Shown here one piece after another: positions 13,165-64,000 of a stretch of 64,000 nucleotides of DNA. Position 1 is the first letter of the stretch. Each line of letters begins with the position of its first letter. This stretch comes from Aphelidium insulamus (taxonomy: Eukaryota; Aphelidiomycota; Aphelidea; Aphelidiaceae): assembly GCA_036784855.1 (NCBI GenBank), contig JAZDSV010000010.1, positions 342,095 through 406,094 of the forward strand, written 5' to 3'. The notes under the pieces are model-generated. The model had not been told where the DNA came from. It made no database searches and saw only the letters and a list, made by a program, of their open reading frames with translations. The translations under genes were made by a program, and so were the position numbers.

Positions 13165-13276
13165 TCTGCCGGTATTATAATTGTTGCGAGAGATTTGTTA
13201 CCATTGGCTGATTATATTAGGCTGATTAGAATTGCGAGCAAGACATAAGTTTTCCATCCACACTTTCAATCAACAC

Positions 13277-14005: not shown

Positions 14006-14168
14006 GATTAAATTGATGAAATTGATTTATTGCGATATTTAATTGTACTATTTAAATACTGTGTGCAGGCTGCAGTCCACCGAAAAGCAAAAGGGGCAAA
14101 GCGCATGCACGCGCGAAGCCAATAAGTTACACATAGTGAAAAAACGCGAAAAATCATTTCATTCATTC

Positions 14169-27382: not shown

Positions 27383-29155
27383 TCATATTGCAGAATATCT
27401 CGAGACAAGTGCTCGAGCATCTTGCTTGTGGCGGTCGTCCATCTTCATCCACTTCTGGTTCATTTCTTCGTAGCATGCTGTAATTTTCGTCTCGTAATCT
27501 GCCATGACTGCTTGAATACGCGGCTGCTGTTCGTATGGTAACGTTCTTCCTAGTGTTCGTAGTCTTCGTACTTGATAGATTAGACCGTCAAGCTGCTGCT
27601 CAAGTTGGGAATAATCACTTAGTAATTTATCCTGATCCTCTGCAGAGGTTTGTCTTGATGCCACGGCCCTTGGCGCATAATTTCTGGTGTGTGGCTCGAA
27701 TGGATCTTCAGCTATGTGGCCATCGGACAGCAATTGCAGTGCAGTATCCTCAGCTTCCGTTGCTTCAACTATTTGGCTCCGCAGTTCATCAACACGACGT
27801 AGATCGATATCGGTAGCTACTTCGGAACGAATGAAGTATTGCAAGCGTTCAAATTCTGCAATGAGCTCTGCAAGTGTTGCTTGGCTAGTCGGCAACGAGG
27901 CGGCAACATCATCTGCGCCATTGCCAACTGTTGGAAATGACGGTCCGGCACTTGGCACTGAATACACGGTGCTCCCCCCAGCGCCTCTCGTGGCGGCGGG
28001 TTGTGCATTGCTGGGTTCAGCTGTTCTGGCCGTTGTAGCAAATTGATACGAACGCGTGCTGGCTGCCGGATGTGCGTCACCGTCGTATTGACTGCTTGCC
28101 TCTGGTTCTTGCAACGAAAGAGCAATAGCAGCGTCAAGATCCGGATCACCTCCCGCGTGAGCCTGATTACCTTGAGCATTATGAAGTAGCAGTGCAGCAG
28201 CCTGCTCTGCCATGACCGCATCGGTTGCACTCTGCTGTTCACCAGTAGCCGCTGCAACATTATACCTTCTTAACGCATCTATGTTCAGCATGTCAGTCAC
28301 GTCTTAGCGTCAAGAATGTGAATCTACTTGCCGATATATTCGTCATTTGTTGCCTGTATGTTCTTTTGAATTGTTTCAATATCGTCATATTTTTCTCGGT
28401 ACCACGGAGCAACCTCTTCAAGATAAGTACGCTCCTCCACCAAGCGCACCATTTCCGCTTCGAGTAGATCCAATTTCAGCCTCGCTGGTGGTACGGAATG
28501 GCTTCCAGTAGAAAACGCAGCTTGACTGCGTTGAGCATTATAATATTGGCGTACAGCAGCCTGTGCTGCATTGGCCGCACTGGTCGCACTCGACTGTTGA
28601 CCAGTAGCCGCTGCAACATTATACAATTACACTACAACGCGTAATGCATGCGCTCACCTGAAGTACTGGGAACATCGTCAAGTACTGCTTGCATAATGTC
28701 ACCGTTATCCATTGGCCACTGGAGCAAAAAGCGGAATTGGCGAACTCCGTCAGGCACAATAAATTTGATAAAGAGCAGATGATTGAATCTTCCGCGCGGT
28801 CTGAAATATTGTTGCACGCCGTTGACTATTTTGGTTGGAATATTATCGTGCAAGTTGCGACGCTCGAATGTCATTTGCCACGGCCGCGTTGGCACATACT
28901 GCCGCAGTGTGGCATCATAAATCTGCGTAATAATTTGAGTCGTCCCGTCAACTGCCCAACGACTGCTGGCAGTATTGACGGCCACGATAACTTGTCCAGC
29001 CCTGTTATGAACGGGGTAGAAGTAGGACTCGGCGGCTAAGAATGCATAATTCAATACGAGAATATATATACTACACCACACATACTCTCCCCCTGGGCAA
29101 ACGCTCCCGACACCAGAACGCACGCTATTAGCAGCAATAATTGCGAGAGAAACAT
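27383..29155 (-). CDS. Secreted protein A: beta-rich domain, UIM motif and coiled coil
   Basis: Exons 29155-29086, 29035-28658, 28610-28332 and 28251-27383 give 531 residues. The signal peptide is MFLSQLLLLIACVLVSGAFA. An N-terminal domain of about 125 residues (ends FRFLLQWPMDNGDIMQAVLDD) is followed by helical, Gln/Ala-rich segments. DPDLDAAIALSLQEPE fits the ubiquitin-interacting motif exactly (acidic, hydrophobic, x-x-Ala-x-x-x-Ser-x-x-Glu). The C-terminus is a coiled coil. Intron 3 (28252-28331) has a GC donor (CG|GCAAGT); if it is not used the protein stops at 244 residues. Exons 3 and 4 begin with the same sequence (AATG.QQSAT), an exon duplication. Paralogue of 32296-33831 and sharing its promoter sequence. 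Function not known; see findings. Confidence 0.65.
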
Positions 29156-32295: not shown

Positions 32296-33831
32296 TCATG
32301 TTCGACTAGCACCGCGGCCTGGCGCTGATGTGGCAGCTGCCGCGTCCACATTTGCCGTTCGTGTTTCGGCATCTGGGGGTGCAATAGCTCGAGCCACTTG
32401 CTTGTGCTCGTCATCCAACCGATCAAAAATATTGTTCATGTCAGAGTCGTACTTTTGACATTGTGCTTCCAATGGTGACAATTCCCTAGCGAGATTCCTC
32501 GATTGCTGTCGACTTGCGAGCACGACTTCTATTTGGGCCTCTAGATCGCGAAGCTCCTGATCAAGTTGTACATATCGCCGTAATAAAGCATCCTGACGTT
32601 CTGCATTGGTAGATGCCGAGGCTCCATGGTCAACATTTCTGGTGCGTGGCACATCTTGGTTTCCACGGCCACTTGACTGCGTTTGCAGGATAACCGCCTC
32701 AGCTTCCGCCACTGGGCGCGATGGCCCTCCAGAATGACGTATGTCGCCGCCATTTCTACCTTGTCCTTCTTGGATTACACCTCGTACGCGATCCAGTTCC
32801 GCCTGAAGCGCATCAATCTGCGCTTGCCGATCCTGCAATAAGAAGGCGACAGCACCAACAATATCATGTGATGCAATTGACGGTCCCGCACTTGGCACTG
32901 AATACGCGGCGCTCCCAGTGCCTCTAGTGGCGGTGGGTTGTGCATTGCTGGCTGCAGCTGTTCTAACCGTTGTAGCAGGTTGATACGAACGCGTGCTGGC
33001 TGCCCGTTGTGCATCACGGTTGTTTTGCATCTCTAGTTGCAACGAAAGTGCAGTAGCCCAGTCAAGATCTTCCTGATTAAATCCATCAGTATTCACCCGA
33101 GGTTGAGCACTTGCGGAGCTTCCAGTACGATAAGGAGCTTGACGGTGCCGATTCTTATAATACTCAAGTAGAGCCTTCTGTTGCTCAATGTCCTCAAGGA
33201 TCGCACTCTGCTGGTGATCAGCAGCCGTTGCACCATTATTTGTGCTTGTCGAAGCTATATGCAGCACGTCAGTCATGTCCCAAAGCACATAAATATATAT
33301 ACACGTACAAGCAACCATAAAATCACAATGCTACATCCTACAAAATATGTGCAATGAATGTACTAACCGGGCAAAGAACTGTGAACGTCGTCAAGTACTG
33401 CTTGCAACGGGGCGCCAGCTCGGTTGCGCCACCGGAGCAAAAAGCGGAATTGATCGACTCCACGAGGCACATTGAAATTAACAATGAATCGATAATTATA
33501 GCTTCCAACGCGCGAATCGCTGTCTACCGAAACATGACTCACTCCGATGTTCCAATCGGCGCGGTTAAGATGGTCCACATATACTCCACCGCTCTTATAC
33601 TGTGGAATGATATGGCTTTTCCAATCGTGTGCCCCCAGATCACGTCCACTAGTAACGGCCACAACGACACTTCCAGTACCGTCCCTGATCGGGTTAAAGT
33701 AAGAAGTAGCGGCTATGAGTGCATGTGGTTATTTGGGGGCAAATATATACACCGTACATACTCTCTCCCTGGGCAGAAGCTCCCGACGCCAGAGCGCACA
33801 CTACTAGCAGCAAGAATTGCGCGAGAATCAT
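32296..33831 (-). CDS. Secreted protein B: beta-rich domain, UIM-like motif and coiled coil
   Basis: Paralogue of the gene at 27383-29155. Exons 33831-33762, 33712-33368 and 33254-32296 give 457 residues. Signal peptide MILAQFLLLVVCALASGASA. The N-terminal domain (residues 23-138) ends in FRFLLRWRNRAGAPLQAVLDD, like protein A. QEDLDWATALSLQLE is a near-UIM with the Ala and Ser kept, the final acidic shifted by one. Then comes a shared linker (RAASTRSYQPATT, YSVPSAGPS) and a coiled coil (QIDALQAELDRVRG; QLDQELRDLEAQIE). It lacks the duplicated exon of A. The 5' flank (GCGCTTTTTATGCGCC, GGCCAATCATG) is almost identical to that of A, so the two may be co-regulated. Confidence 0.7.
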
Positions 33832-46870: not shown

Positions 46871-47809
46871 GTTGTGTGGTAGTATGTATGTTTGTGAAGT
46901 GGATAGTTTCTGAGAGAAGAAGGAGCACGCAGCAACAAACACGACCCAAGTGCGGGGATAATGGATTGATCTGTGTGTGTGTGTGTGTGCTGCGTGATAA
47001 GCCGTGGAACACTCTGAAGGGCCGACGACTGTGCTAGTGGATGCGAGTGGATGCGGGTGGATGGATGGATGGATGGGTTTGGCAGCCAGCCTGCCACTGT
47101 TAATATGTCAGCCAATCACGCAATGGACTCTGCAGTTCATGCATGCTGTATTAAATACACAATACAATATATACAATACAATACAATACATTAAATACTA
47201 CAAAACAGCAACTCTTTTACGAATAATATATCCAAGGAATAAATGGCATCGAACCTAACATGCATATGTGGTTTCAGCGCTGGTGTTCCAATGGAACCAT
47301 CAAGATTAGAAGGGTAGTGTTCCAATTTTCCGGCTATTCAGGCCTTATGCAAGGAAATGTGTCTAGTAGCAGTGTGTGTCGATGGGCATTGCAATCATGC
47401 TCGGAGTACTACAAATCACTCAATTGCAATACCGCAACAAGCAATAGTTGTGCAGCCCATATTGCGACATGAAGGACACGCATGGCACATTAGCATAAGT
47501 ATGGTGAAGTGAAGTTTACTTTAAATTAATGTAAGTGCAAGTGAATATATGTGTAGTGTAGTGTGTGAGTTTAGCCGTCAAGATAAACTCTATATATGTG
47601 CTTACACACACACACACACGAAAGGTTGCAAGTATGAACAGTGAAATCGAAAGTATAAGTTGTAAATATTACGTACAACTAAATACATATTAAATACTTG
47701 CAACTTGGAAATAAGTCCAACCTGTGTTGTCAGCACACGTAAACACTCACACCGAGCACACATTACAACACACACCGACAGACACCGACAGACACACCCC
47801 GCAGACAGC
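46871..47809. other. Divergent intergenic region with simple repeats
   Basis: Between the DEAD-box gene (minus) and the MYND gene (plus), 939 bp without a supported gene. It contains a (TG)n tract at about 46973-46989, GGATG repeats near 47056-47076, an ATACA-type run at 47157-47192 and a (CA)n tract at 47605-47620. A CCAATCACG motif lies near 47113. Short open frames here show no coding character. Confidence 0.6.
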
Positions 47810-49788
47810 ATGGAAGCGTACAACCACATCATACAGGACAATGTCAGTCTGAGCACCAAGAGCACTGCGTCCATGATGTGTCTGGCGCTGGAGATGGCGC
47901 TGGTGCACCGGCCCGCCGAGATGCTGCCACCGCTGCTGCAAAAGATTCGCACCGCCTCCTCCGAGTTCAACCGCAAACTGTCGTTCCGGGCAAGTGTTGC
48001 CGCTGATATGCACCTGTCTGCCTCTCTGCAGACATGGTCACTGACCGTCTCTGTGCAGCTGCTCCAGTCCAACCGCATACTGGTCATTGTGGACGCGGTG
48101 CAGCGCAGCCTGGACGAGTCGCCGCACTCGTACACACCGCAGCTTCTTCAGCTGCTGCAAAAGGTGCTCTGCGTCACCGTGGACATTCGGCATCACCTCC
48201 TCCAGCACCACATACCGCTACAGGAGAGCACGTGTCGCCTAATCATGCGTCTGGGCGGCCCGTCAGCCCTCGTCAGTTCCGCCGTCACTGCCACACCCGG
48301 CCCACGCTCCACGCCCATGGACACGGACCCCGCAATGAATACGAACACTAGTGCTGCCCGCGAGATATCTAGTACTACGGCGGTGAGAGACACTAACGGT
48401 ACGGATGTGACTGTCGCGGCGGACACGCCGGTCGAGGTGAATGGCACCATCGCCGTCGGCTCTGCACTGGCCGCCGTAACTGTTGTGATACCCGAGGAGT
48501 ACCGTATCAGCTGTCTGGAGATGTTGGTGCGGTTCTGGGTGGATGCCACTCTGGTGGCCGAGAAGGAGCACATGGGACCAATATTCAGTGGCAAGGTGCC
48601 GCTGATGGACGCCGTGGATCTGATGATACGGCAGCCCTCGCCCACCACGCTCGACCCCACTCTGCGCCTGCTCTCCTACTTGTACGAGCTGGCCTCCACC
48701 CCGGCCGATCTGCAGTACCTGAGCGCCCACTCCACCTGGCCGACACTGTTTGAGCACACCATGTTCCAGGAGCAGTTCCGGCTGACGCTGCTGCAACACT
48801 TTTCCAACCACCTGATTCCGTGTATACCGGCACCAATGCGGTCCCTATTCCGGCGCATGTTTGAACAGTTGACGGCCAGCTCCAACGTTCAGATACAGAA
48901 CTATGCGTTGCGGTGCTGCCGGGTCATGACATCGCTGGGTGTGCGCATTGGTGCCGAGGTGTTGAACCGGGAGAACATTGCATTCCGTCGCAGTCGAGCG
49001 GTAAGTCTATATGTATCTTTTTTATCAATCGTTCTTTATACAATGTATCTCACTGTCTGGCAGGTGTGGATGCGGCGCAGTTGTGAAGGCTGCCAGTTGA
49101 TGGAGTCCAGTTTTGGCGAGTTCATGATGTGCGCTGGTTGTCGTCAAGTGCGCTATTGCAGCAAGGTTAGTTAATGGCTCTTCATAAAACACATGCCAAT
49201 TTTATTTCCCTTTAGGACTGCCAAGTGCGAGACTGGAAGTACCACCGGATGGCTTGCCACTTCTTTCGGCCACGGCCCGGCTTTAGGTCGCGCGGCACAC
49301 AAACCCCCGCCGACTCATTCACCCAGACCGCCATTAGCATACCGATCTGGGGCGACGGTGCTACCGGCGGCTTTGGTCTCGCTGAAGAAGCTGCGGCTCC
49401 CGCGACCGCCACTGTTACTAGCATGATAATTAGCACTCAGCGCGTTAGACTCATCTCCACAATGTCTTTGCAGCCAAACACTGATGAAGTGGTGGAGGAG
49501 GCCCCCGTCGCCGATGATCGCCAAGGTGGACAGGCTGCCGAGTATGGTGACGAAGATGTTGTGGTATCTGTGCTGCCCACAACTCGCAACGATTTGGCAA
49601 ACCTGGGTGCCACGCCCGCCGTCAACAATGTCGCTGCGGTGCCCATGGAGGTGGACGGCCAAGCTGACGGCGCTGCTGTTGCTGCTATACATTCGCCGGA
49701 GCGGCGCGCCAACAATCTGCCGCTGCAGGTGACACGCGCCACCGAGACTGATCTGACATTTCCTGTAAACTTGGAACGTGTGGAATGA
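47810..49788 (+). CDS. MYND zinc-finger protein
   Basis: Exons 47810-49000, 49064-49165 and 49216 onward. The first 397 residues are helical, armadillo-like (LQLLQKVLCVTVDIRHHLL; LRLLSYLYELASTP), with a Thr/Ala-rich linker. The MYND finger spans exons 2-3: CEGCQLMESSFGEFMMCAGC, RQVRYCSK, DCQVRDWKYHRMAC, with all Cys and His in place; MYND fingers bind Pro-rich peptides. After it the sequence is acidic and low-complexity up to a stop at 49786-49788. An OTU-like domain follows at once in another frame and has no ATG of its own, so the true gene may splice near 49609 (GG|GTGCCACG) into it and end at 50215. Total 588 residues without, about 670 with, that exon. Confidence 0.75.
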
Positions 49789-50215
49789 AGGCACAAAAGC
49801 TGGCAATTGTTTGTACGAAGCATTGGCTGATCAACATCTGCGCAAAATTTGGACCTATCTCACCGATGATGAGAGGCGAGAAACTATAACGACGATGGCT
49901 GCCACCATCAGGGAAGTAGTAGTAGCCGAACTCAGAGATGGCGGTTTAGAGAAATATCCCATTCATCATCAGCTCTCTACTGCTTCATTAACATTTAATC
50001 AATATCTCGACCATTTGGCAGAAGATGGCATATATGCTGATGATGCTTGCGTCGAGGCGTATGCTAATCGTTATGACAGCAGTGTTCAAATATTCACCTT
50101 CAGCGACAATAAGTTTCAATCTTATATAGTTGGAGAGGGTAAAGAATCACGAGTGACAATTGCGCTCTACAACCCTCCAAATAGCGATGGACACTACGTT
50201 TCGCTCTACCGATAA
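49763..50215 (+). CDS. OTU-like cysteine protease domain, probable last exon of the MYND gene
   Basis: An open frame of 151 codons that starts after a stop and has no ATG before the domain. It contains the OTU pattern: KAGNCLYEALADQ (catalytic Cys after Gly-Asn), a helix with ITTMAATIREVVVAEL, FNQYLDHLAEDGIYADDACVEAYANRY and a C-terminal GHYVSLYR with the catalytic His. OTU enzymes cut ubiquitin chains. The usual Asp before the Cys is replaced (A-G-N-C for D-G-N-C). A similar domain ends the gene at 53497-55836. Acceptor sites at 49789 and 49797 both need phase 1, which the donor at 49609 provides. Joining to the MYND gene is an inference. Confidence 0.55.
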
Positions 50216-50262
50216 CGATCTTGGCAAATCATAGTTCCAATATAATCTCTATTACTGCACGT

Positions 50263-51504
50263 TTAATATTGAACACTGAACACCAGCGTCGCGGAACCGC
50301 GCCAGCGTCCACGTATTGTACCCAAATTATTTAAACCTTTGATCCACTCTTCCCATTGAGTCTGTTTCTCTTCGTGCAACTGGGCTGATGCTATCAGAGC
50401 CATTTTCATTTCTCGCTGGTCCTCCGCGGCATTTTTACTGGCATCTTTTTCCACTTGCACCGATTGTTGTATAGCTTTCGCCAGGTTTACTTCTTCTTCA
50501 TCAATTTCGCTAAATGCTGTGATGTCAGCATGATTATCCCTTTTTAATCCGGCTATTTCGTCCTTCAGCGCGCCATCGATCTGACCGGGAGTCATACGAT
50601 CCAAGCTTATTTCTTCATCAATATGGTACGACAGTAATCCAGCTTTAATAGCATCACGAAACGCCTGAGTTTCATGCTCGTCTGGCGTCAATACTTCGTA
50701 CCCGCGACCATTCATTAGAGCACGTTCAGCGAAATGTCGTCCTTCGACGGCCATGCCATCATAGAGCGGATCGAACTCCATAGATCCTTCAACATCTGCC
50801 AGCTGCTTTTGCTCGATTTCGATTAAATTATTTTCAGGTAAAGATGACGCTTCTTTCAGGGATGCTTTAATTGCCGCTTGCAATAGCTCTTCGTCAGTGA
50901 TAAGGTTCGATGCAATTTTCGATCGCGCAATCCTAGCTTGAATCTCTATTGTAGCAGCAACAGAAGCAGGGTCAAAATTGATTTGCAATTTGGCTTTCGG
51001 TATCGTATAACCGGCATGGTCGAAGTAATCCATGCGGAAAACAAGATGAGTGGCCAGTCTCGGCCAATAGGAATTGTACCGCGGATCAACCATAATTTCA
51101 ATAGTATAGCCGTCAATAGGATTTTTCGCAGCGACCACAGAAGCACCGAAAAGAATGTTCCGTGCTATTTGCGGTTCACTTGAATGCGTCTGGGGTAATT
51201 TCAGGACCTCCTCTCGTGATGTAATAAATTTCTCACGGATGGCTCGCTTATCGCCATCGTGCAAGCTCCATTTGATATGCAGGCTTCCGTAACTTGGTTG
51301 CGGGAGAGAGACAACTCCAACTGCTAGTTGGATCATCGCGTAAGGCTGAGGAGCTACTGTTGGCAATACATATTTGTTGTAGTCAGTAGCCTCCATTAAG
51401 TTTGTAATATATGCGGGAAGCAGACTTCCATCGTAGGTAAAAAAAGTCGTGGCCGCCGCTGACGCGAAGAGAAGACTCAGCTGCGCCACGCACATCCAAA
51501 TCAT
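50263..51504 (-). CDS. Signal-peptide protein with three UIM-like motifs
   Basis: Single-exon gene of 413 residues. Signal peptide MIWMCVAQLSLLFASAAATT. Residues 20-190 form a beta-rich domain (FRMDYFDHAGYTIPKAKLQI). The C-terminal half is helical and acidic with three motifs of the UIM type: DEELLQAAIKASLKEA (perfect: hydrophobic, x-x-Ala-x-x-x-Ser-x-x-Glu), EEEVNLAKAIQQSVQVE (last acidic shifted) and REMKMALIASAQLHEE. A signal peptide plus C-terminal UIM is also the plan of secreted proteins A and B, though the N-terminal domains are not clearly alike in sequence. A CCAATCAGAAGC motif lies 70 nt upstream. The partner ubiquitin would have to be outside the cytosol or in a host. Confidence 0.7.
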   Translation of the reverse strand: MIWMCVAQLSLLFASAAATTFFTYDGSLLPAYITNLMEATDYNKYVLPTVAPQPYAMIQLAVGVVSLPQPSYGSLHIKWSLHDGDKRAIREKFITSREEVLKLPQTHSSEPQIARNILFGASVVAAKNPIDGYTIEIMVDPRYNSYWPRLATHLVFRMDYFDHAGYTIPKAKLQINFDPASVAATIEIQARIARSKIASNLITDEELLQAAIKASLKEASSLPENNLIEIEQKQLADVEGSMEFDPLYDGMAVEGRHFAERALMNGRGYEVLTPDEHETQAFRDAIKAGLLSYHIDEEISLDRMTPGQIDGALKDEIAGLKRDNHADITAFSEIDEEEVNLAKAIQQSVQVEKDASKNAAEDQREMKMALIASAQLHEEKQTQWEEWIKGLNNLGTIRGRWRGSATLVFSVQY

Positions 51505-51751
51505 TTTTGCAACGCAGAAGAATCTCGCTGCGCGCGCTGCGTGTCACGCGCGCACGAAGCAAAATCCACCAATCAGAAGCGCGAATTCCCAGTCAGGGGT
51601 TTGCTGCATAGCGCGATCGGCCGGCCAACTCAAAACAGTCGCGCCGCCACGTCACCGATTTTGACACGCAGCTCCGCATGCACTCATACATACGCGCTGT
51701 TTATATATAGACATCATACGTTGCTGCTGCTGCATACATTCGGTCAGGGTG

Positions 51752-53417
51752 ATGAAGAATGCAACATCAATTCGGTGCTTGCTGGGGCTGAGTGCCGCAT
51801 TCCTGCTGGGCACCGCCATCTACCTGTCACACACAGACACTGGTGTGCCTGGGGGCAGCATTGCATTCAGTCGTGGTATGTAGTGTCACGCATACTGTGG
51901 CAGTACAACAAAAGATTGATGCTGAGCAGGATATTTGGCTACCGGCAATGTCGAGGACGTCCAAGAGGCCACGCCGACACAGGAACCAGACGAGCCTCCT
52001 GCCATGACATTTGACGACATTGTACCATCCTCAGAGACATTTACGCCCAATGCTGATGTTCACGGTTCACTTGAACCGCCTGTTGCTATTGCCGGCGGTG
52101 GCGAGGCTCTGCTGGATGATGTGGAGAATGCTGAAGACGATGAAGATGCTGACGACGACATGCTCGACGAACAAGACGGCGTGGATTTCAAGGGCGTCGA
52201 CGAAGTTGAACAGTTTGAGCAGAGGGTAGCCGACACCGAGACTGCCGATGCCACTCCGCCTACATGCAGTCGGCACTTGCAGTGCCGATCCCTGGCCGAA
52301 GCACTTCATCCCGGTGCAGAGTTGCCGCGCTGCTCCATACTGGATCCCAGTTCCTCGCCGCCGTACACTCGCGGTGCCTGGCAGAATGTTCTCCCGGTTG
52401 AGCTAGGCCCGCTACACAACACTACGCTGGCAGAGGCACAGACGGAGTGGTTACGCTCCAGTGCCTACTCGTACCAGAACGAGTGTAATATGGCCCAGTC
52501 GTTCAGGTGTCACACATATGAGCCGAATTCGTGCCGCATGAAATCGCTGGACGTTGTGAAGTACCAGTGGCTGCCTTCTGATTGTTACCTGGAGGACTTT
52601 GACGCGGTGGCACTAGATCGCGTCATGCGCAATCGCACAGTGATGTTTATCGGAGACTCGCTGATGCGACAGCAGTTCAACTCGTGGCGATTCCTGCTGG
52701 ACGGCACTGCCGCCGAAAGTCTTGCCAATGATACCTCGCCGCTGCACGAACAGTTTCGTACCGTGAGCGGTGCACGCTACATATTCGAGTGGGCGAAATT
52801 TCTGTTGGCTGACCGAGATGTGCGCATGATAAGCAAGGACGGTAAATTCCAGCTAGATGCTGAGATGGGCTGGTCAGTGCGGCTCCGTGAACAACCAATC
52901 GACGTAGTGCTCATGAATGTGGGTCATCACTGGCACAAGGCAGACGTAGACTTTAAGCAGTACGAGCGAATGGTTGATATAGTGGCGAAATTTTTCAAGG
53001 AACACTTTGGCGGCGCGCTGATATTCTTTCGCACCACCTCTGTCGGCCACTACAGCTGTGACTCGGACCCGGCGTTGCGATCGCCGATTGAAAGGGCCCC
53101 GGTACTGACAGCAGACATGGACAAACACAACTGGCGCAAACCCATCAAGGCCGAGTACGTTTGGGCCAACGCAATGGCACAAACCGGTTTGCAGGATAGG
53201 TTCCGCTTCCTGAATGTGTCGCACAGCCAGCTGCGACCCGATGGCCACCCAGAATGGAACATTCGTGGGCGATACAATATTGATTGCCTGCATTGGTGCC
53301 TGCCAGGCATTCCCGGTACTATTATATGTTCCATTGCGTAACCTCAGACTAATACGAGCAGACACCTGGAATCACTTCCTGTTCAATGCATTGTTGGAAA
53401 GGTTCTCTCCGGCGTAG
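51752..53417 (+). CDS. PC-esterase/TBL-like O-acetyltransferase, type II membrane
   Basis: Exons 51752-51875, 51930-53315 and 53362-53417 give 521 residues. A single N-terminal transmembrane anchor (CLLGLSAAFLLGTAIYL) implies a Golgi type II protein. A long acidic stem (residues 45-130) precedes the catalytic part: a Cys-rich entry (CSILDPSSSPPY..GAWQNV; YQNECNMAQSFRCHTY), the GDS block FIGDSLMRQQFNSWRFLL with the nucleophilic Ser, and the C-terminal [20 protein letters not shown] with the DxxH catalytic pair. This is the plan of trichome-birefringence-like and other PC-esterase acetyltransferases that acetylate polysaccharides or glycans. The acceptor sugar is unknown. The last exon codes only 18 residues but completes the DxxH motif environment. 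Confidence 0.85.
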
Positions 53418-53496
53418 TACGATAAAAGCATCATTTCGTGTTTAGTCAATATTCATATATTTTGCCTGGATATTCACGATGCATTCAATTATAGAA

Positions 53497-55836
53497 TCAG
53501 CCAGCGTGTGACTCAGTGTTCGAAATAAGCTGCTCCTCAGGATAAATGGATTCATAGTGGTCGCTGGCAGAGTTTCCCTCGGCATGTTGCTTATACTGCA
53601 GGTAGAGTTTGTGGCATCGGCCGAGTGCGCGTGGTTCCACACCTTCATACGGCCCTTGAGTGAAAACGTTGTATGCTCCGTTAGACATGTTATTGCGTCG
53701 GATCTCCACCGTGGTGTGATAGATGGAGCAGAAAGCATTGATACAATTTGCATCGCCATATTCACCCGGCGCACCCAATCTGGCAATGTAATCGTCAAAT
53801 GGTTCTTCGGACAGGAAATCCTTTGTCGGACTATCACTTAGTTTGTCGCGCACTACTTGCGCAATATTCTTTCGAAGTTCCGAGACTTGCTTTCGCCACC
53901 ACTGTTGAGAACCATCCGACGTGAATTTAGGTTTCTCTACCAATCCGCAGTGTATAAGCTGTTCCAACAAGGCAATAAATAAACAGTCCCCACGCTGTCC
54001 GGTCTTGCTGCCGTGTGCCTGTAATTCTGGGTGTGCATCGCCGCCGTGCTCCAAGACAAGATCATCATCATTGCCATATTGCGCATTCGATTGTGCTTGC
54101 TGTACCTGGCCTATGCCAAGGATATGTAAGTTAAAAAAAAATCAATGACAATGTATTTTTGCCGTACCAACGTAATCCAGCAAAAGCTGCGGCGTGCCAT
54201 AATCTTCTTGAACCGACTGTGCACTGTTGGCATGACCCTCACAGTCAGCAATTTCGCCATAATGGCAGTGGAATCGTGCGCGCTCCACATGAAGCGTGTA
54301 CCGTATATCAGCCACGGACTGCTGTTCATACTGCTTTTCATTTTCTGCGCCGAGCACCTGATCAAAATGGTACAATGCCAACTGCTGGTCGTTGTGCAGC
54401 CATGCATCCATCGCCAGCTCGCGATGGAAAATCATTTTCAGCCGCAAACTGACAGCTGCAGGTGCCGCCAGGGTTTCTGTGGGGTTGCTCGAGTGAAGTT
54501 GTGTTCGGTGGCGAAGGTAAAACACCTCAAGCAGATCGAGACAGGCGGTCAGTTGCTCCAGCAGCGTGGGACGGCTCGAAATGCGGTGCTGCAGGAACTC
54601 GTCGTCCATCGCCATCAATCGTTCGATGGAATCGATGGCGGTGTACAGCGATTGCGGGTCGGTCATTCTCGGTAGCTGCATTGGATTGGGCGCTGGGCCA
54701 ACTGCTTGCGCGGCACTGCTTTCGTACAGGTGCCGCAGGCTGTTCACCAAGTCTCGGACCAGATCAACAATGTACATAACAAAGTAGCGACTCGAGTTGG
54801 CTGCAGCCGACTTGCACTGCGTGTCCGACTGCAGGTGGCGACCATATTGTTCAGCGAGCACAAATAGGTGACGCAGGCGCACGCAGAAATCGCTGGCAAG
54901 GGTTTCATCGATTTCAATCTGCGGCTCAAACAGCGCCGCAGAGACCAGCGGTGTTGCAACAGACGCATGGGCGCCTCCATGAGACGGCGGCGGCAGCACG
55001 ACCGCGCTAAATTTGAGCTGCAACTGCGAGGCGGCGTCCAGAATGTTCATGTAGTGCAGCTGGTCAACGTAGTCGCGCAACAAGTCGCTGATCGTGACGT
55101 CCAGCGCCAACGTCAACGACATCAAGTCACCCGAATCTGATATCCCGCCGGCCGACTCGCTGTACGGCTCCAGCGCCACATGCAGGAAACTGGAGCCATT
55201 TCCTCGCGGAGCAGACAAACTCTCTGGCTCCTTTGGCCATACGGACGGTGCAGATGGAGACAGGTACCGCAAATGCAGATCGAATTCAGCCACCAGGTTG
55301 ATTAGAATCTTGTCATACGCAGGCGCTCCATGAGGAACATCCTCGTCATCGTCCCCACGCATAAATGAATACCGACGACCGGTGAGCGTGGCCGAGACAC
55401 GGAGCAGCGCTACTGGCTCCACTACAAACGCGCCTGACAAACGTTGCATCAAGTTGATCCCTGGGCCATTAACGTCACGACCACGACCACCCGGCAGCTC
55501 ATGGTCACCAAGCACACGTCGCGCAAAACGCGGCCCACTAAAAACATACAATAAATGCCACGCCTTTGGGTCGGACGTATAGGTGAGCTGCTGGGGCGGC
55601 AGACAATAATGCGCCTCGGCATCCTGGTGGGGCGCAAATGGCGGCAACCGCGTGAATGCATGCCGCCGCACAGCCTGGGCCTCAGTGCCAAATGGCCGGA
55701 ACGTGTCATACGGCGCGGGACAGGGCGCCGCACCACGAAGCAAAGTTTGCTGCTGCGCGGACGCCACAGCAGAGCGTGCCAGCAGAAGCAGAAGCAGCGC
55801 GAGCGCCCAAAGAAGCGACCACGACGCGCGGGCCAT
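53497..55836 (-). CDS. Signal-peptide protein with C-terminal OTU-like domain
   Basis: Exons 55836-54168 and 54110-53497 (57-nt intron, phase 1) give 760 residues. The start MARASWSLLWALALLLLLLARS is a strong signal peptide or signal anchor. The N-terminal 550 residues have mixed beta and helical regions (HYCLPPQQLTYTSDPKAWHL; LVAEFDLHLRYLSP) and a tetratricopeptide-like end (LALYHFDQVLGAENEKQYEQ). The last exon encodes an OTU-type fold: TGQRGDCLFIALLEQL (Cys), LRKNIAQVVRDKL, FDDYIARLGAPGEYGDANC, YHTTVEIRR and a DHYESIY end (His). Gly-Asp-Cys replaces Gly-Asn-Cys. OTU domains are normally cytosolic, so the topology is unusual and worth testing. The stop lies 79 nt from the convergent PC-esterase stop. 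Confidence 0.7.
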
Positions 55837-58350: not shown

Positions 58351-58909
58351 TGTAACACGGAGCTGTACTCCGTGTCAGCTTAGCGCCGATGACGTCATTA
58401 TGACTCATCCGGTACCGAGAGTTTGGGAATCTTTCGTCGCGCCGGTAACCGCGGATTGGCAACCGGAAAGCGCTCAGCGAGAGGAGGCGTTGGACACCAA
58501 CCCTGGCATCTACGTTCATTATCAACTGCTGAGCCTATAGGTTCGTGATCTCACTCTGCTCGCCACTTCTCTGTCTCTGGTACCAACGGCACAAGGTCCG
58601 CCGTGACGGTCAGACTGTGTCCATCTGACACGTCACAGGTATATAATAAATACGTTCATTATCAACTGCTGAGCCTATAGGTTCGTGATCTCACTCTGCT
58701 CGCCACTTCTCTGTCTCTGGTACCAACGGCACAAGGTCCGCCGTGACGGTCAGACTGTGTCCATCTGACACGTCACAGGTTCGTGATCTCACTCTGCTCG
58801 CCACTTCTCTGTCTCTGGTACCAACGGCACAAGGTTTGTGATCTCACTCTGCTCGCCACTTCTCTGTCTCTGGTACCAACGGCACAAGGAGCCCCTGGCC
58901 CTTGTTACA
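58351..58909 (+). repeat. 5' LTR (559 bp, missing promoter segment)
   Basis: Starts TGTAACACGG and ends CTTGTTACA, giving the inverted terminal TGTAAC/GTTACA. The first 150 bp match the 3' LTR at 63471 almost base for base, including a hairpin ACACGGAG/CTCCGTGT at the very start. Compared with the 3' LTR it lacks about 65 bp between CCCTGG and ATCTACG, which in the other copy hold the TATA box and the start of the transcript. Confidence 0.9.
58511..58890 (+). repeat. Tandem repeats inside the 5' LTR
   Basis: A 140-bp unit beginning TACGTTCATTATCAACTGCT occurs at 58511 and 58651. After it a shorter sub-unit beginning GTTCGTGATCTCACTCTGCT recurs near 58780 and 58833. The 3' LTR has the same 140-bp duplication. 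Such internal duplications in the R or U5 part probably arose during reverse transcription. Confidence 0.8.
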
Positions 58910-58919
58910 TAGATCAACT
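58910..58919 (+). other. Primer-binding site of self-priming type
   Basis: TAGATCAACT follows the 5' LTR with no gap. It is the exact reverse complement of AGTTGATCTA at 63683-63692 in the 3' LTR, about 30 nt after the TATA box, where the transcript should begin. This is the self-priming arrangement known from Tf1 and related chromoviruses, in which the mRNA 5' end folds back to prime minus-strand synthesis instead of a tRNA. Confidence 0.75.
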
Positions 58920-58925
58920 CACAAA

Positions 58926-60644
58926 ATGGATCAAGTCGTTGAAGACACACTGCAACCAACACAGCAACAACTGATTGATCAAGTCAAACGCCTGACGGCA
59001 GAAAATCAAGAATTAGGACAAGCTATATTGCGCCTTGGTCGCAAGGTAGACTCCGACCCCGATCGCACACCACGGGCCTCTCAGCGCAACATACCTGAGA
59101 GTAGCATCCAGACTATCCGAAACGATGTCCACCAGCTGCTACGGTCAAAGATGATACACCCATTTACCGGTCAAGAGGAAAGCACGCTTCTGGTCCGCAA
59201 GTTTCTGCGACAGTGCCTGTGCGCCTTCGAATTCTACGGCGTGCACATGCTGGCGGCGCGTTATATCGTGGTCGGCACCTTGCTGACGGAGAGGGCGGAA
59301 CGTTGGTGGGCTGCATTGCCCAGCCAGCCAACAAGCTGGGACGATTTTGACGAAGTCTTCACGCAATACTTCACTCCGGTCGGCGAGCTGACCAAGGCGC
59401 GATATCAGATGAGTCGACTCGAGCAGCGCCAGTTCACCACCTTGGCCGCCTACAATGCCAAGTTCCAAGATCTACATAGCATTATTGGCAACATGACAGA
59501 AGCAGATGCCCTGGACGTGTACCTTCGTGGCCTACAGCGCGATACCCAGCTGCATGTGTCGGCGTTGGGACCCACCAGCTACGAACAAGCCATGGCGTGG
59601 GCGGTGCGCTACGATGGCATTGCTGCCCAGGTGGAGGTCAACACAGGGAGAAACCGCACGCGCAATGCTCCGTACCACTATGCCAATGCGGCTCCATACC
59701 AACCAGCCCAACGTCAAACCGGCCCAGAGCCCATGGATCTATCAGCGGCAGCCACGATGAGTACTACTACACGACCAACGTACCCTGCTCGGCTGTCACC
59801 AGAGGAGCGCGAGAAGTGTTTTCGAGAGGGTCGCTGTCTGGCATGTCGCCAGCTGGGCCACATTGCTGCCGCGCCGGCCTGCCCATTCTTCCACCTGCGC
59901 AATAAACCGGCCACTTCCCAGTGCGAATTGATTTCTGTCGAAAGTGAAACGACCGCTAGTAATAGCGGCATTATTGAGTACCCCAATCAGCATAATTTGC
60001 TGCGGAAAACCGGTAAAATTAATGGGCGATCCGCCCGATTCTTATTCGATTCCGGCGCATCGCACAATTTTGTCTCCCGCAATACTCTAGAACACCTACA
60101 CGTGGCGGCCACTGGGCCTGTAAGTCAAGTACGACTTCCTGACGGGTCTCTGCATGACGGATTGGGCAAAGTGAGGCTACCTGTGGAGATAGGCGGGGAG
60201 TACCGCGACACAATCGAATTTACTGTCATTGATTTACATGGCGGTCTGGATGTCATACTAAGTAAGGCGTGGTTCACCATCATCAACCCCACAGTAGACT
60301 GGCGTGAGAATGTGCTGCGATTTGACCGGTTCGGCAGGCAAATCACAATTCATGCTAATAATACTCCTCTACGCGAGGTGGTGGACTGCCAGGTTATGGA
60401 GTGTAATGCATTCACACACGAGGCAAAATCGTCGGATGCACCCATTTTTGCCGTTCTGATGAAAACCGGCATCAATATCAGCCACGAGCACTCGGTTGAT
60501 GTTCCCGGCCTAGCGAATCTTCTTAGTGAATATGGCGATGTGTTTGCAAAACCGCCTGATAAATTGCCGCCACGACGTGCCGTGGACCATGCCATACCGC
60601 TCGTGGACAATGCCAAAACTCCGCGCAACGCCTATATCGATTAA
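58926..60644 (+). pseudogene. Retrotransposon Gag and protease part
   Basis: Open for 572 codons from the ATG at 58926. The N-terminus is a coiled coil (LIDQVKRLTAENQELGQAIL). The capsid part follows (residues 70-230; WWAALPSQPTSWDDFDEVFT is the retrotransposon Gag signature). A zinc knuckle of unusual spacing, CLACRQLGHIAAAPAC (C-x2-C-x4-H-x6-C), lies near residue 305. The aspartic protease has FDSGASHNFVSR near residue 377. The frame stops at 60642-60644 just as the reverse transcriptase begins; the continuation is in another frame. Confidence 0.85.
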
Positions 60645-63470
60645 GCTTTGCGGAGTCCGACGAGTTGAAAGTGCAATTGGAGAAACTACTTGCTTCGTGG
60701 GTGGATACGGCCATCTACCAGTAGCTACGGCGCTCCGGTGCTCTTTGTTCAAAAAGCCAACAACCGCGGACTCCGACTTTGTGTCGATTATCGCGCCCTG
60801 AATGACATAACCATGAAGGATCGTTATGGGATGCCACGTGCCGACGACTGTTTGGACCAGCTATCGGGCGCCAAAGTGTTTTCAAAGCTGGATCTAGTGT
60901 CCGGGTTTCATCAAATCCGCATCAAGGAGGAGGATATACCGAAAACGGCGTTCCGAACAAAATATGGTCATTTTGAATATCTCGTGGTCCCATTCGGCCT
61001 AACCTCAGGCCCGGCGACGTTTCAACGATTAATGAACCAGGTGTTTCAGCCGCTTCTGGATCAGGGCGTGGTGGTGTATTTAGACGACATACTGATTTAC
61101 GCTAAAACGCCGGATGAACACTTGCATCTATTACGAGAAGTGTTTCAACTTCTTCGCGAAAATGAATTGTACGCAGAACCCGAAAAATGCGAATTGCGCT
61201 TGACATGAAACCCAGTTTCTAGGCCACATTGTCAGCCGCGATGGCATTCGTGTAGAGGATACAAAAATCGATCTGATTCGGGATTGGGAAACGCCTAACA
61301 ATGTCACGGATCTCCGATCATTTTTGGGACTAGCAAATTATTATCGTCGTTTTATTGATCAATATTCGCATAAGGCAGCGCCATTAACCGCACTAACGGG
61401 CAAAGACGTACCTTGGGCATGGCCAACCGAGGCGAGCAGAGCTTTTGGGAGTCTGAAGAAAAGCTCGACGTCCGCGCCACTGTTGCAGCCGCCGGATAGA
61501 AACCGTCCATTCTTCATCTTCTTCGATGCATCATCGGTCATTGCAATTGGTTCCGTCTTATGCCAAGAGGACTCGGATGGAAGACTTCACCCTGTTGCAT
61601 TTGAGTCACGTAAGTTAAATCCAGCGGAACGTAACTATCCGGTACACGAGGTTGAACTTGCATCCCTTGTTCATGCACTCAAAAAATGGCGCCACTACCT
61701 TGATGTTGAGCGGTTTTTCGTATACACAGACAATATCTCGTTGCAGACCCTGCATACTGAGCGAAAATCTCAGCAAACGTCAAATTCGCTGGTTAGCAGA
61801 AATACAAAGCTTCCAATTTACCATTCGACACATACCAAGGGACCAGAATGTGGTGGCCGATGCCCTGTCCAAGTATGACCCTGGACCGGTCATACTGCCA
61901 AAAGGACGCGATCTTCACACTTTCAATGGCGATTCCGAAATGCTCATAGCTTCTACCGATCTGATTGCGCCTGCTGACGTAGCACCGCGCGATTTAGAGG
62001 CGGAGCGTCGAGATTTTCTGGATGTGGTCCGCCGCGGTTACCAAAATGATCGCCGCTGCCAACGCTTGCTGACAAACTGTGCGCCACCGTTCCGGTTGGA
62101 GGACGGATTGTTGCACTTTGAGCCAGCAAATGCCCGCTCGCGGCTATTAGTTCTACAACACCATTAGTCATTCGTCGGATACTACGAGATGAACATGACC
62201 GGGCAGGACATTTTGGCATTGATAAAACCATGGAGTTGGTGCGACGAAAATATCTCTGGAACCATATGGAGAAATCTGTACGCCGGTACTGTGAAGCATG
62301 TGACTCCTGCCAGCGTGTCAAAGATACTGATCGAGCACCACATGGTCTGGCTGTACCATTGGAGGTCGCCGTTGAGCGCTGGGCTGATCTGGCGATGGAT
62401 TTCATGCCTGCACTACCGGAAAGCCACAATCACAACGATTCCGTCCTAATCGTTGTGTGCCGTCACACCAAAGGTATTGTATTGATTCCGTGTAAACCCA
62501 ACAATACCTCCGCCCAAATTGCCGAACTACTACGTCTACATGTCTTTCAACACAAGGGTTATCCAAAGTCAATAGTGTCGGACCGAGACTCGCGATTTAC
62601 GTCGCGATATTGGACGGCATTGATGGCTCGATGGGGTATTGCGCTGAAAATGTCAACCGCCAACCACCAGCAGACGGACGGGCAGAGTGAGCGTGGTGTG
62701 CGAACGGTAGGAAGTTCTGCGTCATTATGTCAACTTTCAGCAAAACAACTGGGAAAAGTTGCTACCTGACGTAGCCATGGCATGCAACGATGCCACCAAC
62801 GCGTCGACCGGCTTGACTCCATTCTTTGCCGACTTGGGCCGTCATCCAAATGTATTGAAGCTGTGCACCCCATCATCCAATGCACCAGCGGTGGAGGAGC
62901 TGGTGCGGCAGCTGAAGGACACAAGCGAACGCATCGCCGATCGCCTGACGTTGGTGGCACAAGACCAAAATTCTACGCCGATCGGCGAAGGATTGAACCG
63001 CCAACCTTCCAAATTGGTAATCTGGTTCTACTTGATGCTTCGGCCCTTGCCAATTGGCCGATCTTCCGACAAGCGCCGATCCGAAAGCTCCGACCGCGTC
63101 GTTTTGGCCCATTCAAAATTGCCGAGATTGCTGGAGTGAACATCACGCTGGAACTCCCACCAACCCTGCGGATCCACCCAACTTTTCATGTGTCACTCCT
63201 CACGCCCTATGTAGCATCGGACATTCCAGTGTACGATGAGCCTCCTGCAGAAATGGTTGATGGTCGAGCGGAGTTCGAAGTAGAGGCTATTCTCGGACAT
63301 CGAACCTTCCGGCGACAGAGACAATACTTGGTGAAATGGCGTGGCTACTCAAATGAACACAACACTTACGAGCCACGGCAGAACTTAACAAATTGCGCGG
63401 ACCTACTGGCTGCATATCACCAGCAACTGGGCACATTAACGGCGGAGGCGGTTCCGATTTTGTTGGGGAG
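60634..63470 (+). pseudogene. Retrotransposon Pol: RT, RNase H, integrase, chromodomain (frameshifted)
   Basis: Pieces in several frames, in order: reverse transcriptase 60700-61205 (GAPVLFVQKAN, LDLVSGFHQI, LVVPFGLTSGPATFQRLMN and the catalytic YLDDIL near 61080); RT end and RNase H 61209-61760 ([26 protein letters not shown]); integrase zinc and core 62170-62740 (CEACDSCQRVKD, DFMPALP, SDRDSRFTSRYW); and an integrase C-terminus ending in a chromodomain at about 63265-63420 (YLVKWRGYSNEHNTYEP). Breaks lie near 60640, 60700, 61207, 61765, 62166, 62745 and 63010. The order RT-RNase H-integrase identifies Ty3/gypsy, and the chromodomain a chromovirus. Confidence 0.9.
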
Positions 63471-64000
63471 TGTAACACGGAGCTGTACTCCGTGTCAGCT
63501 TAGCGCCGATGACGTCATTATGACTCATCCGGTACCGACAGTTCGGGAATCTTTCGTCGCGCCGGTAACCGTGGATTGGCAACCGGAAAGCGCTCAGCGA
63601 GAGGAGGCGTTGGACACCAACCCTGGGAGGCGTCGGACGCCATATCGGCTATAAATACGGCATTGGAGTCGGAAAGCCCAGCAGTTGATCTACGTTCATT
63701 ATCAACTGCTGAGCCTATAGGTTCGTGATCTCACTCTGCTCGCCTCTACTCTGTAGTGTTTTTTAGAGAGCTAGGCTCTTTTACCAACGGCACAAGGTCC
63801 GCCGTGACGGTCAGACTGTGTCCATCTGACACGTCACAGGTATATAATAAATACGTTCATTATCAACTGCTGAGCCTATAGGTTCGTGATCTCACTCTGC
63901 TCGCCCTTTCTCTGTCTCTGGTACCAACGGCACAAGGTCCGCCGTGACGGTCAGACTGTGTCCATCTGACACGTCACAGGTTCGTGATCTCACTCTGCTT
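63471..64000 (+). repeat. 3' LTR, partial (continues beyond window)
   Basis: Starts TGTAACACGG like the 5' LTR and follows it closely, with an extra segment of about 65 bp at 63626-63690 carrying TATAAATA (63650-63657) and the self-primer sequence. Near 63753-63780 a short unrelated stretch (GTGTTTTTTAGAGAGCTAGG) replaces part of the sub-unit. The window ends inside the second tandem unit, before the expected GTTACA end. Confidence 0.9.
63650..63692 (+). promoter_or_regulatory. LTR promoter and transcript start with self-primer
   Basis: TATAAATA at 63650-63657, then AGTTGATCTA at 63683-63692, about 30 nt downstream where RNA polymerase II starts. The 10 bases pair with the site at 58910-58919. 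The following bases also allow a local hairpin, AGTTGAT with ATCAACT at 63702-63708, which could compete with or position the primer. The 5' LTR of this copy lacks this segment. Confidence 0.65.

Follow-up and report, generated by a model that had tools for sequence, protein, structure and literature searches.

Proteins that parasites expose to their hosts have been catalogued in microsporidia, including Nematocida, where, in the passages of PMC5423893 drawn on here, they carry signal peptides, belong to clade-specific families, and mostly have no known domain. The same passages place ubiquitin carboxyl-terminal hydrolases among the commonest domains in predicted host-exposed microsporidian proteins outside the large families (PMC5423893). 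Signal peptides are likewise found on the normally cytosolic hexokinases that Trachipleistophora hominis secretes and that act in the host cytoplasm near the parasite, according to the parts of PMC6460350 used here. Among bacterial systems, Spaid-type toxins of Spiroplasma combine a signal peptide, ankyrin repeats, and an OTU deubiquitinase domain for use on the host (PMC9742256, in part), and the phytoplasma protein SAP05 is described in the available passages as a secreted effector acting through the host proteasome via RPN10 binding (PMC10850148; PMC8525514). Effector papers containing the words "ubiquitin-interacting motif" (UIM) exist (PMC9045269; PMC10959940). In a literature search with most subscription journals outside its scope, which covered secreted proteins with UIMs, effectors of the OTU type or from aphelids, and the loss of sequons, titles and abstract openings among the matches listed did not describe the architecture considered below.

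The window, meaning the whole 64,000-nucleotide stretch analyzed, lies at the end of a contig in a eukaryotic assembly of 18 Mb that resembles the aphelid Aphelidium. The organism, a small flagellated eukaryote, is probably a parasite of algae, an identity that we infer. Some of its predicted products look made for export while carrying modules that ordinarily bind or cleave ubiquitin within cells.

Predicted Signal Peptide/UIM Genes

Three genes of the window combine a signal peptide-like start with UIM-type motifs:

50263..51504, minus strand: P0001; signal peptide (about residues 1-18), N-terminal region, and C-terminal UIM array; 413 aa, single exon
50848..50898, minus strand: UIM 1 of P0001 (residues 203-219); Pfam PF02809, 20.0 bits in the genome search
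50449..50499, minus strand: UIM 2 of P0001 (about residues 336-352); pattern match
50371..50424, minus strand: UIM-like helix 3 of P0001 (about residues 361-378); pattern match only
27383..29155, minus strand: duplicate 1; signal-peptide exon 29086-29155, beta exon 28658-29035, UIM/coiled-coil exon 27383-28251 (UIM 28106-28147)
28324-28610, minus strand: competing exon of duplicate 1, ending without a UIM
32296..33831, minus strand: duplicate 2; signal-peptide exon 33762-33831, beta exon 33368-33712, UIM-like exon 32296-33254 (motif about 33025-33081)

A preliminary description of this DNA had proposed all three as signal-peptide proteins with UIMs, and P0001 bears this out most clearly. Its 413 codons form one open frame, the same exon encodes signal peptide and UIM, and Pfam scores the UIM at 25.1 bits against a cut-off of 21, counting two stretches of which the second is unplaced. 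Three pattern matches start at residues 208, 341, and 366, a count equalled in none of 20,000 residue shuffles. At 20.0 bits, its best UIM is about level with the weaker UIM (19.8 bits) in the genome's own Rpn10-like gene. The N-terminus has no basic n-region, and the mature protein contains no Cys. A single-sequence structure model (pLDDT 36.9) was set aside.

The other two genes are diverged duplicates with the exon order signal peptide, beta, UIM (41% identity over the UIM exon). Here the earlier claim holds for the order of exons and is weaker for the motif itself: the UIM of 27383 scores 14.6 bits, under the cut-off of 21, that of 32296 was not listed by Pfam at E 1, and splicing of 27383 to the nearer exon gives a 245-aa product without a UIM. 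A separate exon in each gene encodes little beyond the signal peptide, and codon scores did not favor the own frame in the UIM exons of the pair or in exon 2 of 32296. The N-terminal domain of the pair was modelled as all beta, and a fold search returned Ig-like arrangements with ordinary scores.

The same architecture occurs again on a second contig, C158, in two tandem paralogues (C158A and C158B), each in an uninterrupted frame and taken only to the end of its first long exon. Because each lies in one uninterrupted frame, signal peptide and UIM cannot be separated by splicing in P0001 or in these two paralogues. The C158 proteins are only 33% identical, yet both keep the motif's two E, Q, A, and S; Pfam scores the UIM of C158A at 10.3 bits (cut-off 21) and listed none in C158B at E 0.01. 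Thus, P0001 alone passes the Pfam cut-off, and the motif is sub-threshold in four of the five signal peptide/UIM proteins. The core pattern is present in all five, which were themselves picked by the pattern or by membership of the window. This pattern (a hydrophobic-x-x-Ala-hydrophobic-x-x-Ser core with an acidic flank) was written by us after viewing the window, with Thr admitted for 32296. It occurs in 6 of 363 ORFs of at least 150 aa over 264 kb, namely the five signal-peptide genes and one FYVE/UIM gene; six further matches, in short frames of 67-94 aa, resemble noise, and shuffle probabilities for a single motif are 0.005-0.017. The N-domains of the three lineages (P0001, the pair, and C158) could not be aligned or joined by profile comparison, an all-against-all phmmer search linked nothing beyond close paralogues and the ankyrin proteins, and no relative of the pair or P0001 was found in the viral contigs scanned.

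UIMs with similar scores are also carried by the FYVE/UIM gene (L008 on C158, identified by Pfam) and by a gene on contig C1 (L007) that is presumably Rpn10-like. Both look like conserved cytosolic housekeeping proteins; L008, the one of the two that was scanned, has no signal peptide at its UIM frame, unlike the predicted secreted UIM set.

OTU Genes and the PC-Esterase Neighbor

Two OTU-like coding regions and a PC-esterase gene lie beside P0001:

54168..55836, minus strand: SP-OTU exon 1 (P0002); signal peptide (about 55759-55836) and about 530 aa without a family match
54111..54167, minus strand: predicted SP-OTU intron, 57 bp, GT-AG
53497..54110, minus strand: SP-OTU exon 2 with OTU domain (match 53581-53991; Cys in QRGDC, His in DHYES)
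47705..50215, plus strand: MYND gene with downstream OTU-like exon (about 49783-50215); no signal peptide, join uncertain
51935..53341, plus strand: main exon of the PC-esterase gene, between P0001 and SP-OTU; PF13839, 85.7 bits

The computed model of SP-OTU agrees with the earlier reading of a gene that starts with a signal peptide and ends in an OTU-like domain. It joins two exons over the predicted intron, no ATG precedes the OTU core within exon 2, and the OTU match (PF02338) reaches 30.5 bits against a cut-off of 23.3. A Cys and a His, which we take to be the catalytic residues, do not vary when five OTUs of the genome, SP-OTU and MYND-OTU included, are aligned. SP-OTU is thus a putative secreted OTU-type deubiquitinase, and it may share the host pool of the UIM proteins.

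The exon after the MYND gene was rightly described as OTU-like, with Cys and His kept, although its score of 19.9 bits falls below the cut-off of 23.3. Among the joins tried, connecting it to the MYND gene needs an intron of 184-274 bp; the models here contain seven further introns, of which five measure 47-57 bp and the remaining two 113 and 406. The gene starts without a signal peptide, and MYND-OTU was dropped from the secreted set. The "four to five such genes in 64 kb" of the preliminary description accordingly come down to three independent signal-peptide cases, the pair being duplicates and MYND-OTU not secreted.

Neither P0001 nor P0002 has a homologue at E 0.001 in a collection of 5.8 billion proteins, of which about 8,000 word-sharing candidates were scored for each, while the neighboring PC-esterase, whose hydrophobic N-terminus we place in an exon farther upstream, near 51751, finds 22 homologues there (the best 53% identical), a difference that points to lineage specificity of P0001 and P0002. 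Against PDB sequences at E 10, P0001 and MYND-OTU matched only unrelated proteins (E 0.24-0.94 for both together), and SP-OTU and P0002 matched nothing.

Signal Peptides, Sequon Loss, and Destination

By our own heuristic rule, which combines hydropathy with small residues, the five UIM proteins and SP-OTU have an N-terminal signal peptide and no transmembrane segment. In our reading of the sequences small residues precede the likely cut sites in all six, and none of the six as modelled has a KDEL- or HDEL-like end. The rule also picked a protein with a PRKCSH domain, an ER-type domain, and other nearby signal-peptide genes carry ankyrin repeats. Signal-peptide-like starts occur in 26 of 111 ORFs of at least 250 aa near these genes, about a quarter, and because they are so common their overlap with the UIM is unsurprising by itself; it is not significant (P 0.14), and the idea that it is statistically striking was dropped.

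N-glycosylation sequons provide a more informative signal. The five signal peptide/UIM proteins contain none, against 9.66 expected, and no shuffle out of 20,000 was as low (each pair protein was shuffled with a single misjoin where its first two exons meet, which touched no motif or sequon). With one paralogue per lineage the count is 0 against 4.75-6.41 expected (P 0.0008-0.006 in the three of four possible trios that were run), and when the motif is reversed or replaced by its Gln or Asp version, counts come out close to expectation. The 81 ORFs without a signal peptide hold 148 sequons against 139 expected. Since the codon-selected ORFs that start with a signal peptide (25 in all) hold 26 against 34.1 when pooled, the loss is not general among secreted ORFs; it recurs in secreted ankyrin ORFs and is absent from ten other secreted ORFs, in groups (ankyrin, beta, and other) that were formed after the first counts had been seen. 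SP-OTU is undepleted, with 3 sequons against 2.36 expected, one of them (residue 697) inside the OTU region.

Sequon loss in the UIM proteins suggests passage through the ER followed by work in a place where glycans are unwanted, and the simplest such place would be the host cytosol. Together with the lack of transmembrane segments and of KDEL/HDEL-like ends, it speaks for export rather than for residence in the ER. The effector role put forward in the preliminary description gains from the sequons, from signal peptide and UIM in one frame, and from the missing membrane and retention signals, and loses by the P 0.14 overlap, the sub-threshold UIMs of the pair, and the overstated number of cases. 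The reading we prefer, which could well be right though we give it slightly less than even confidence, is that P0001, the duplicates, and the C158 genes are secreted ubiquitin readers, peculiar to this lineage and directed at a host, and that SP-OTU is a secreted deubiquitinase. The signal peptide would route the readers through the ER and Golgi, the N-terminal domain (all beta in the model of the pair) would serve targeting or binding, and the C-terminal UIM helices would bind ubiquitin attached to host proteins; SP-OTU, once secreted, may act on the same host pool. If the parasite is aphelid-like and sits within, or takes up, the cytoplasm of its host, normal secretion would reach the host cytosol and an injection device would be unnecessary. 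Secretion itself, contact with the host, binding and cleavage of ubiquitin, and a benefit to the parasite are what we infer from predicted proteins.

Alternatively, the proteins may be secreted or surface beta-domain proteins whose acidic C-terminal helices, except in P0001, are UIM-like by chance or drift, with SP-OTU an unrelated hydrolase of the secretory pathway. The sub-threshold scores in four of five proteins, the modest single-motif shuffle probabilities, the UIM-less product of 27383, and the non-significant overlap all suit this account, which we nevertheless consider unlikely, as P0001 lies above the cut-off with three matches, the diverged C158 paralogues retain the hallmark residues, the pattern is otherwise confined, in frames of at least 150 aa, to the FYVE/UIM gene, and SP-OTU retains both catalytic residues. 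That the N-terminal hydrophobic stretches do not direct export, the proteins being ordinary cytosolic or membrane-anchored UIM/OTU proteins, is highly improbable. The calls do depend on our own rule, and P0001 has no basic n-region, but small residues stand ahead of the likely cut sites in all six proteins, the pair dedicates an exon to little more than a signal peptide, and the same rule found the PRKCSH-domain protein. Sequon loss, moreover, is to be expected only in proteins passing into the ER, and it is not seen in ORFs lacking a signal peptide.

If the proteins are exported, they could instead enter the parasite's own food vacuole, where UIMs and OTU would capture or strip ubiquitinated proteins of engulfed host cytoplasm for digestion. 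Paraphelidium, an aphelid, takes up algal cytoplasm by phagocytosis (PMC6299283, in part). Signal peptides without ER-retention ends suit vacuolar as well as outward traffic. Vacuolar proteins, however, usually bear glycans, yet the UIM proteins have lost their sequons, and we regard this destination as quite unlikely. A bolder form of host-directed secretion, possible but doubtful in our judgment, is that an algal parasitoid floods the host cytoplasm through its ordinary secretory pathway with an arsenal of cytosolic modules (UIM arrays, an OTU enzyme, ankyrin repeats), mostly purged of sequons. Missing sequons behind a signal peptide would then mark effectors of a foreign cytosol, and the set with signal peptide, N-domain, and UIM would be its ubiquitin-reading arm.

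Comparison with Known Effectors

Should host-directed secretion prove correct, relatives of fungi that feed on algae from within would possess a secreted toolkit for reading and cutting ubiquitin that has no kinship with the effector families known so far, and sequon loss would sort secreted proteins that act in the host cytosol from those that stay outside, using sequence only. Both claims can be tested in aphelid cultures and transcriptomes.

To our knowledge, SAP05 has no UIM. It bridges its targets to the proteasome without ubiquitin, unlike the proposed ubiquitin-reading UIM proteins. The T. hominis hexokinases are metabolic enzymes rather than ubiquitin readers or cutters (PMC6460350, in part). 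With the microsporidian host-exposed proteins the present set shares signal peptides, clade-specific families, few known domains, and, in the reading proposed here, release directly into a host cell; the passages of PMC5423893 used here do not name UIM or OTU, and the Nematocida set is backed by proteomics, whereas the present proteins are known from sequence alone. Spaid, in the parts of PMC9742256 consulted, is bacterial and a single fused protein, whereas here the OTU domain and the ankyrin repeats reside in separate eukaryotic genes.

Genes joining a signal peptide to a ubiquitin-related domain

The core observation, that a signal peptide is combined with a ubiquitin-related domain, holds in two genes, and a second locus strengthens it; the count of four to five such genes in the preliminary description does not stand. 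The two genes, which flank a PC-esterase gene, are:

50263-51504, minus strand: P0001, a single exon of 413 codons whose product begins with the hydrophobic stretch MIWMCVAQLSLLFASAAA
53497-55836, minus strand: SP-OTU, comprising exon 1 (556 codons) and an OTU exon, separated by a predicted 57-bp GT-AG intron

The signal peptide and UIM first described for P0001 are borne out in one exon, the UIM scoring 25.1 bits in two stretches (Pfam cut-off 21), and our UIM pattern finds three motifs there, a number seen in 0 of 20,000 residue shuffles. No other Pfam family was found at E 1, and at E 0.001 neither a paralogue in its own genome nor a homologue among 5.8 billion proteins. This lack of homologues is informative because a search of the same collection with the adjoining PC-esterase yields 22 relatives (best 53% identity). 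SP-OTU is likewise as described, with a strongly signal-peptide-like start to exon 1, no ATG of its own in the OTU exon ahead of the OTU core, and an OTU domain of 30.5 bits (Pfam cut-off 23.3). Invariant in an alignment of the five OTUs of the genome are Gly, Cys, Ala, Gln, Tyr, Ala, His, Tyr and Ser, including the catalytic Cys and His. The long N-terminal part of SP-OTU gave no Pfam family at E 1, no PDB sequence match at E 10 and no match at E 0.001 in the 5.8-billion-protein collection.

The genes at 27383-29155 and 32296-33831 (both minus strand) are a local duplication. In each, the signal peptide takes up nearly all of exon 1, a beta domain is encoded by exon 2, and a UIM-like motif and a coiled coil by exon 3. 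Searched against the genome, the 27383 beta exon matched only itself and its twin, and the 32296 UIM exon hit, besides itself and its twin, a single further sequence weakly (E 0.02). Structure prediction for the beta exon gave a nearly all-beta model of moderate confidence (pLDDT 72.5, pTM 0.62, the twin being the only other alignment row); a fold search likened it to Ig-like sandwiches, with scores common to many folds. The UIM scores 14.6 bits in 27383, below the Pfam cut-off of 21, and is not listed by Pfam in 32296; for scale, one Rpn10-like UIM exon scores 18.1 bits, also below the cut-off. A duplicated exon in 27383 (28324-28610, minus strand), 47 bp past the donor, shares an identical splice acceptor with the UIM exon (27383-28251), which requires a 406-bp intron. 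If used, the duplicated exon gives a 245-aa product lacking the UIM, and its alternative use would yield products with and without this motif. Codon scores favoured the own frame in P0001, SP-OTU exon 1, 27383 exon 2 and both genes of the second locus, but not in the UIM exons of the pair or in 32296 exon 2.

The exon at about 49783-50215 that follows the MYND gene (47705-50215 with this exon, plus strand) is OTU-like as claimed and keeps Cys and His, but it scores 19.9 bits against a cut-off of 23.3 and the gene start has no signal peptide. Among the joins tried, MYND and OTU could be joined in frame only via introns of 184-274 bp. The product is taken to be nuclear or cytosolic, as is that of a Myb-SWIRM-OTU gene on another contig (C118:345210-348614, minus strand). 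In the latter, a Myb-like domain, SWIRM (split across two exons, each piece below the cut-off) and OTU lie in neighbouring frames, as if OTU stood where a MYSM1-like protein has its protease part.

Genome setting and a second locus

The assembly totals 17,953,404 bases in 169 contigs, with the window at the end of contig C2 (bases 342095-406094), and G+C is 52-53% across the 264 kb read. Figures stated in PMC10608142 for Aphelidium insullamus are 18.93 Mb, 274 scaffolds, 52.05% G+C, 7820 protein-coding genes and 1431 predicted secreted proteins. The window DNA is eukaryotic, with intron-bearing genes, a kinesin-13-like motor, IQUB, NYD-SP28 and a Ty3-type retroelement (58902-63654, plus strand, at the contig end, with gag, protease and chromodomain matches); a flagellum is indicated because IQUB and the sperm-tail (NYD-SP28) family are present.

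A genome-wide UIM search with an E threshold of 1 gave at least eight matches, those listed being an Rpn10-like gene (two), a FYVE/UIM gene, P0001, 27383, a gene on contig C91, a 24-aa frame and a frame on contig C158 that begins with a signal peptide. The last has a tandem paralogue (35% identity). At this second locus each of the two genes is a single open frame carrying signal peptide, N-domain and UIM motif; in their alignment the motif retains two E, Q, A and S, at an overall identity of 33%. When 263,671 bases (C158 in full plus 224 kb from C2) were scanned with the UIM pattern, it occurred in 6 of 363 frames of at least 150 aa, namely the FYVE/UIM gene and five signal-peptide genes, among which the pair is counted with its signal peptide in a separate exon. 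Six further matches, all in frames of 67-94 aa, are taken for noise. At C158:4934-21336 (minus strand), five signal-peptide genes stand in a row, their N-terminal parts beta-rich by eye; two carry the UIM motif, one further gene has a UIM-like stretch with Arg replacing the central Ala, and no mutual sequence match was found in the row besides the two paralogues.

Secreted-looking frames are common. Among 111 frames of at least 250 aa in the 263,671 bases, 26 had a signal-peptide-like start, 6 had a UIM and 3 had both; co-occurrence alone is therefore no argument (hypergeometric P 0.14). With SP-OTU, P0001 and the C158 paralogues set aside, 22 signal-peptide frames were left, of which 20 were read out and 16 scanned with Pfam, three as whole window frames. 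Ankyrin was over the cut-off in five and below it in a sixth, one had a PRKCSH domain over the cut-off, one (C2:317722-318810, minus strand) a PARP-like match of 17.7 bits against a cut-off of 26.7, and the remaining eight had no Pfam match over the cut-off. Ankyrin matches genome-wide number at least 174, counted as repeat stretches and not genes. Two related neighbouring genes at 13226-15296 (plus strand) have signal-peptide-like starts and ankyrin repeats (Ank_2 at 30.2 bits, over the cut-off, in one and 22.1, below it, in the other), and a signal-peptide frame at 20556-21482 (plus strand) consists of many YKPKHDD-type repeats and has no Pfam match.

N-glycosylation sequons

The strongest new evidence is sequon loss. 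The five signal-peptide/UIM proteins contain 0 sequons against 9.66 expected, a count that 0 of 20,000 shuffles reached. Because the five include paralogues, the test was repeated with one member per lineage, giving 0 against 4.75-6.41 expected (P 0.0008-0.006; three trios run out of four possible). Control motifs in the five proteins were near expectation, whether the sequon was reversed (11 against 9.59) or had its Asn exchanged for Gln (13 against 14.46) or for Asp (12 against 14.72). Coding-like frames of at least 200 aa had 148 sequons against 139.0 where a signal peptide was absent (81 frames); the loss is not general, since the 25 signal-peptide frames of that set together had 26 against 34.1. 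In groups drawn up after a first sequon count had been seen, observed and expected counts were 2 and 7.95 for six ankyrin signal-peptide frames, 0 and 3.29 for three further ones on C158, 0 and 0.93 for the PARP-like frame, and 27 and 17.3 for the ten other frames with a signal peptide. SP-OTU, with 3 against 2.36, does not follow the rule, and its membership in the UIM set is therefore weakened. Neither a KDEL-like end nor a transmembrane segment was found in the six modelled proteins (the five and SP-OTU). The simplest reading is that the UIM chains pass into the ER, so that any sequon in them would be used there, but act in a place or form in which glycans are unwanted.

Secreted frames on C2 and C158 seem to be of two sorts, ankyrin, beta-looking and UIM frames being nearly sequon-free and the others sequon-rich beyond expectation.

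Possible roles and precedents

That these proteins are effectors which would read, and perhaps cut, host ubiquitin is tentatively favoured; this reading is plausible and gains new support from the sequon loss. It is unlikely that secreted beta proteins merely bear helices resembling UIMs by chance, and a role in the food vacuole is slightly less likely still; both are ranked under the effector reading because of precedents in Paraphelidium, Amoeboaphelidium and microsporidia. In the aphelid Paraphelidium, as described in PMC6299283, an amoeboid trophont is delivered into the algal cell and engulfs cytoplasm there. A protein secreted inside the algal cell may meet the host cytosol directly. During infection by the aphelid Amoeboaphelidium, host ubiquitin genes shift, E1 and E2 going up and E3 going down, and there is a rise in putative parasite effectors, according to PMC8657485. 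Microsporidia, as described in PMC5423893, export signal-peptide proteins into host cells; most of their predicted host-exposed proteins lack any known domain, and in the remainder ubiquitin carboxyl-terminal hydrolases count among the commonest domains.
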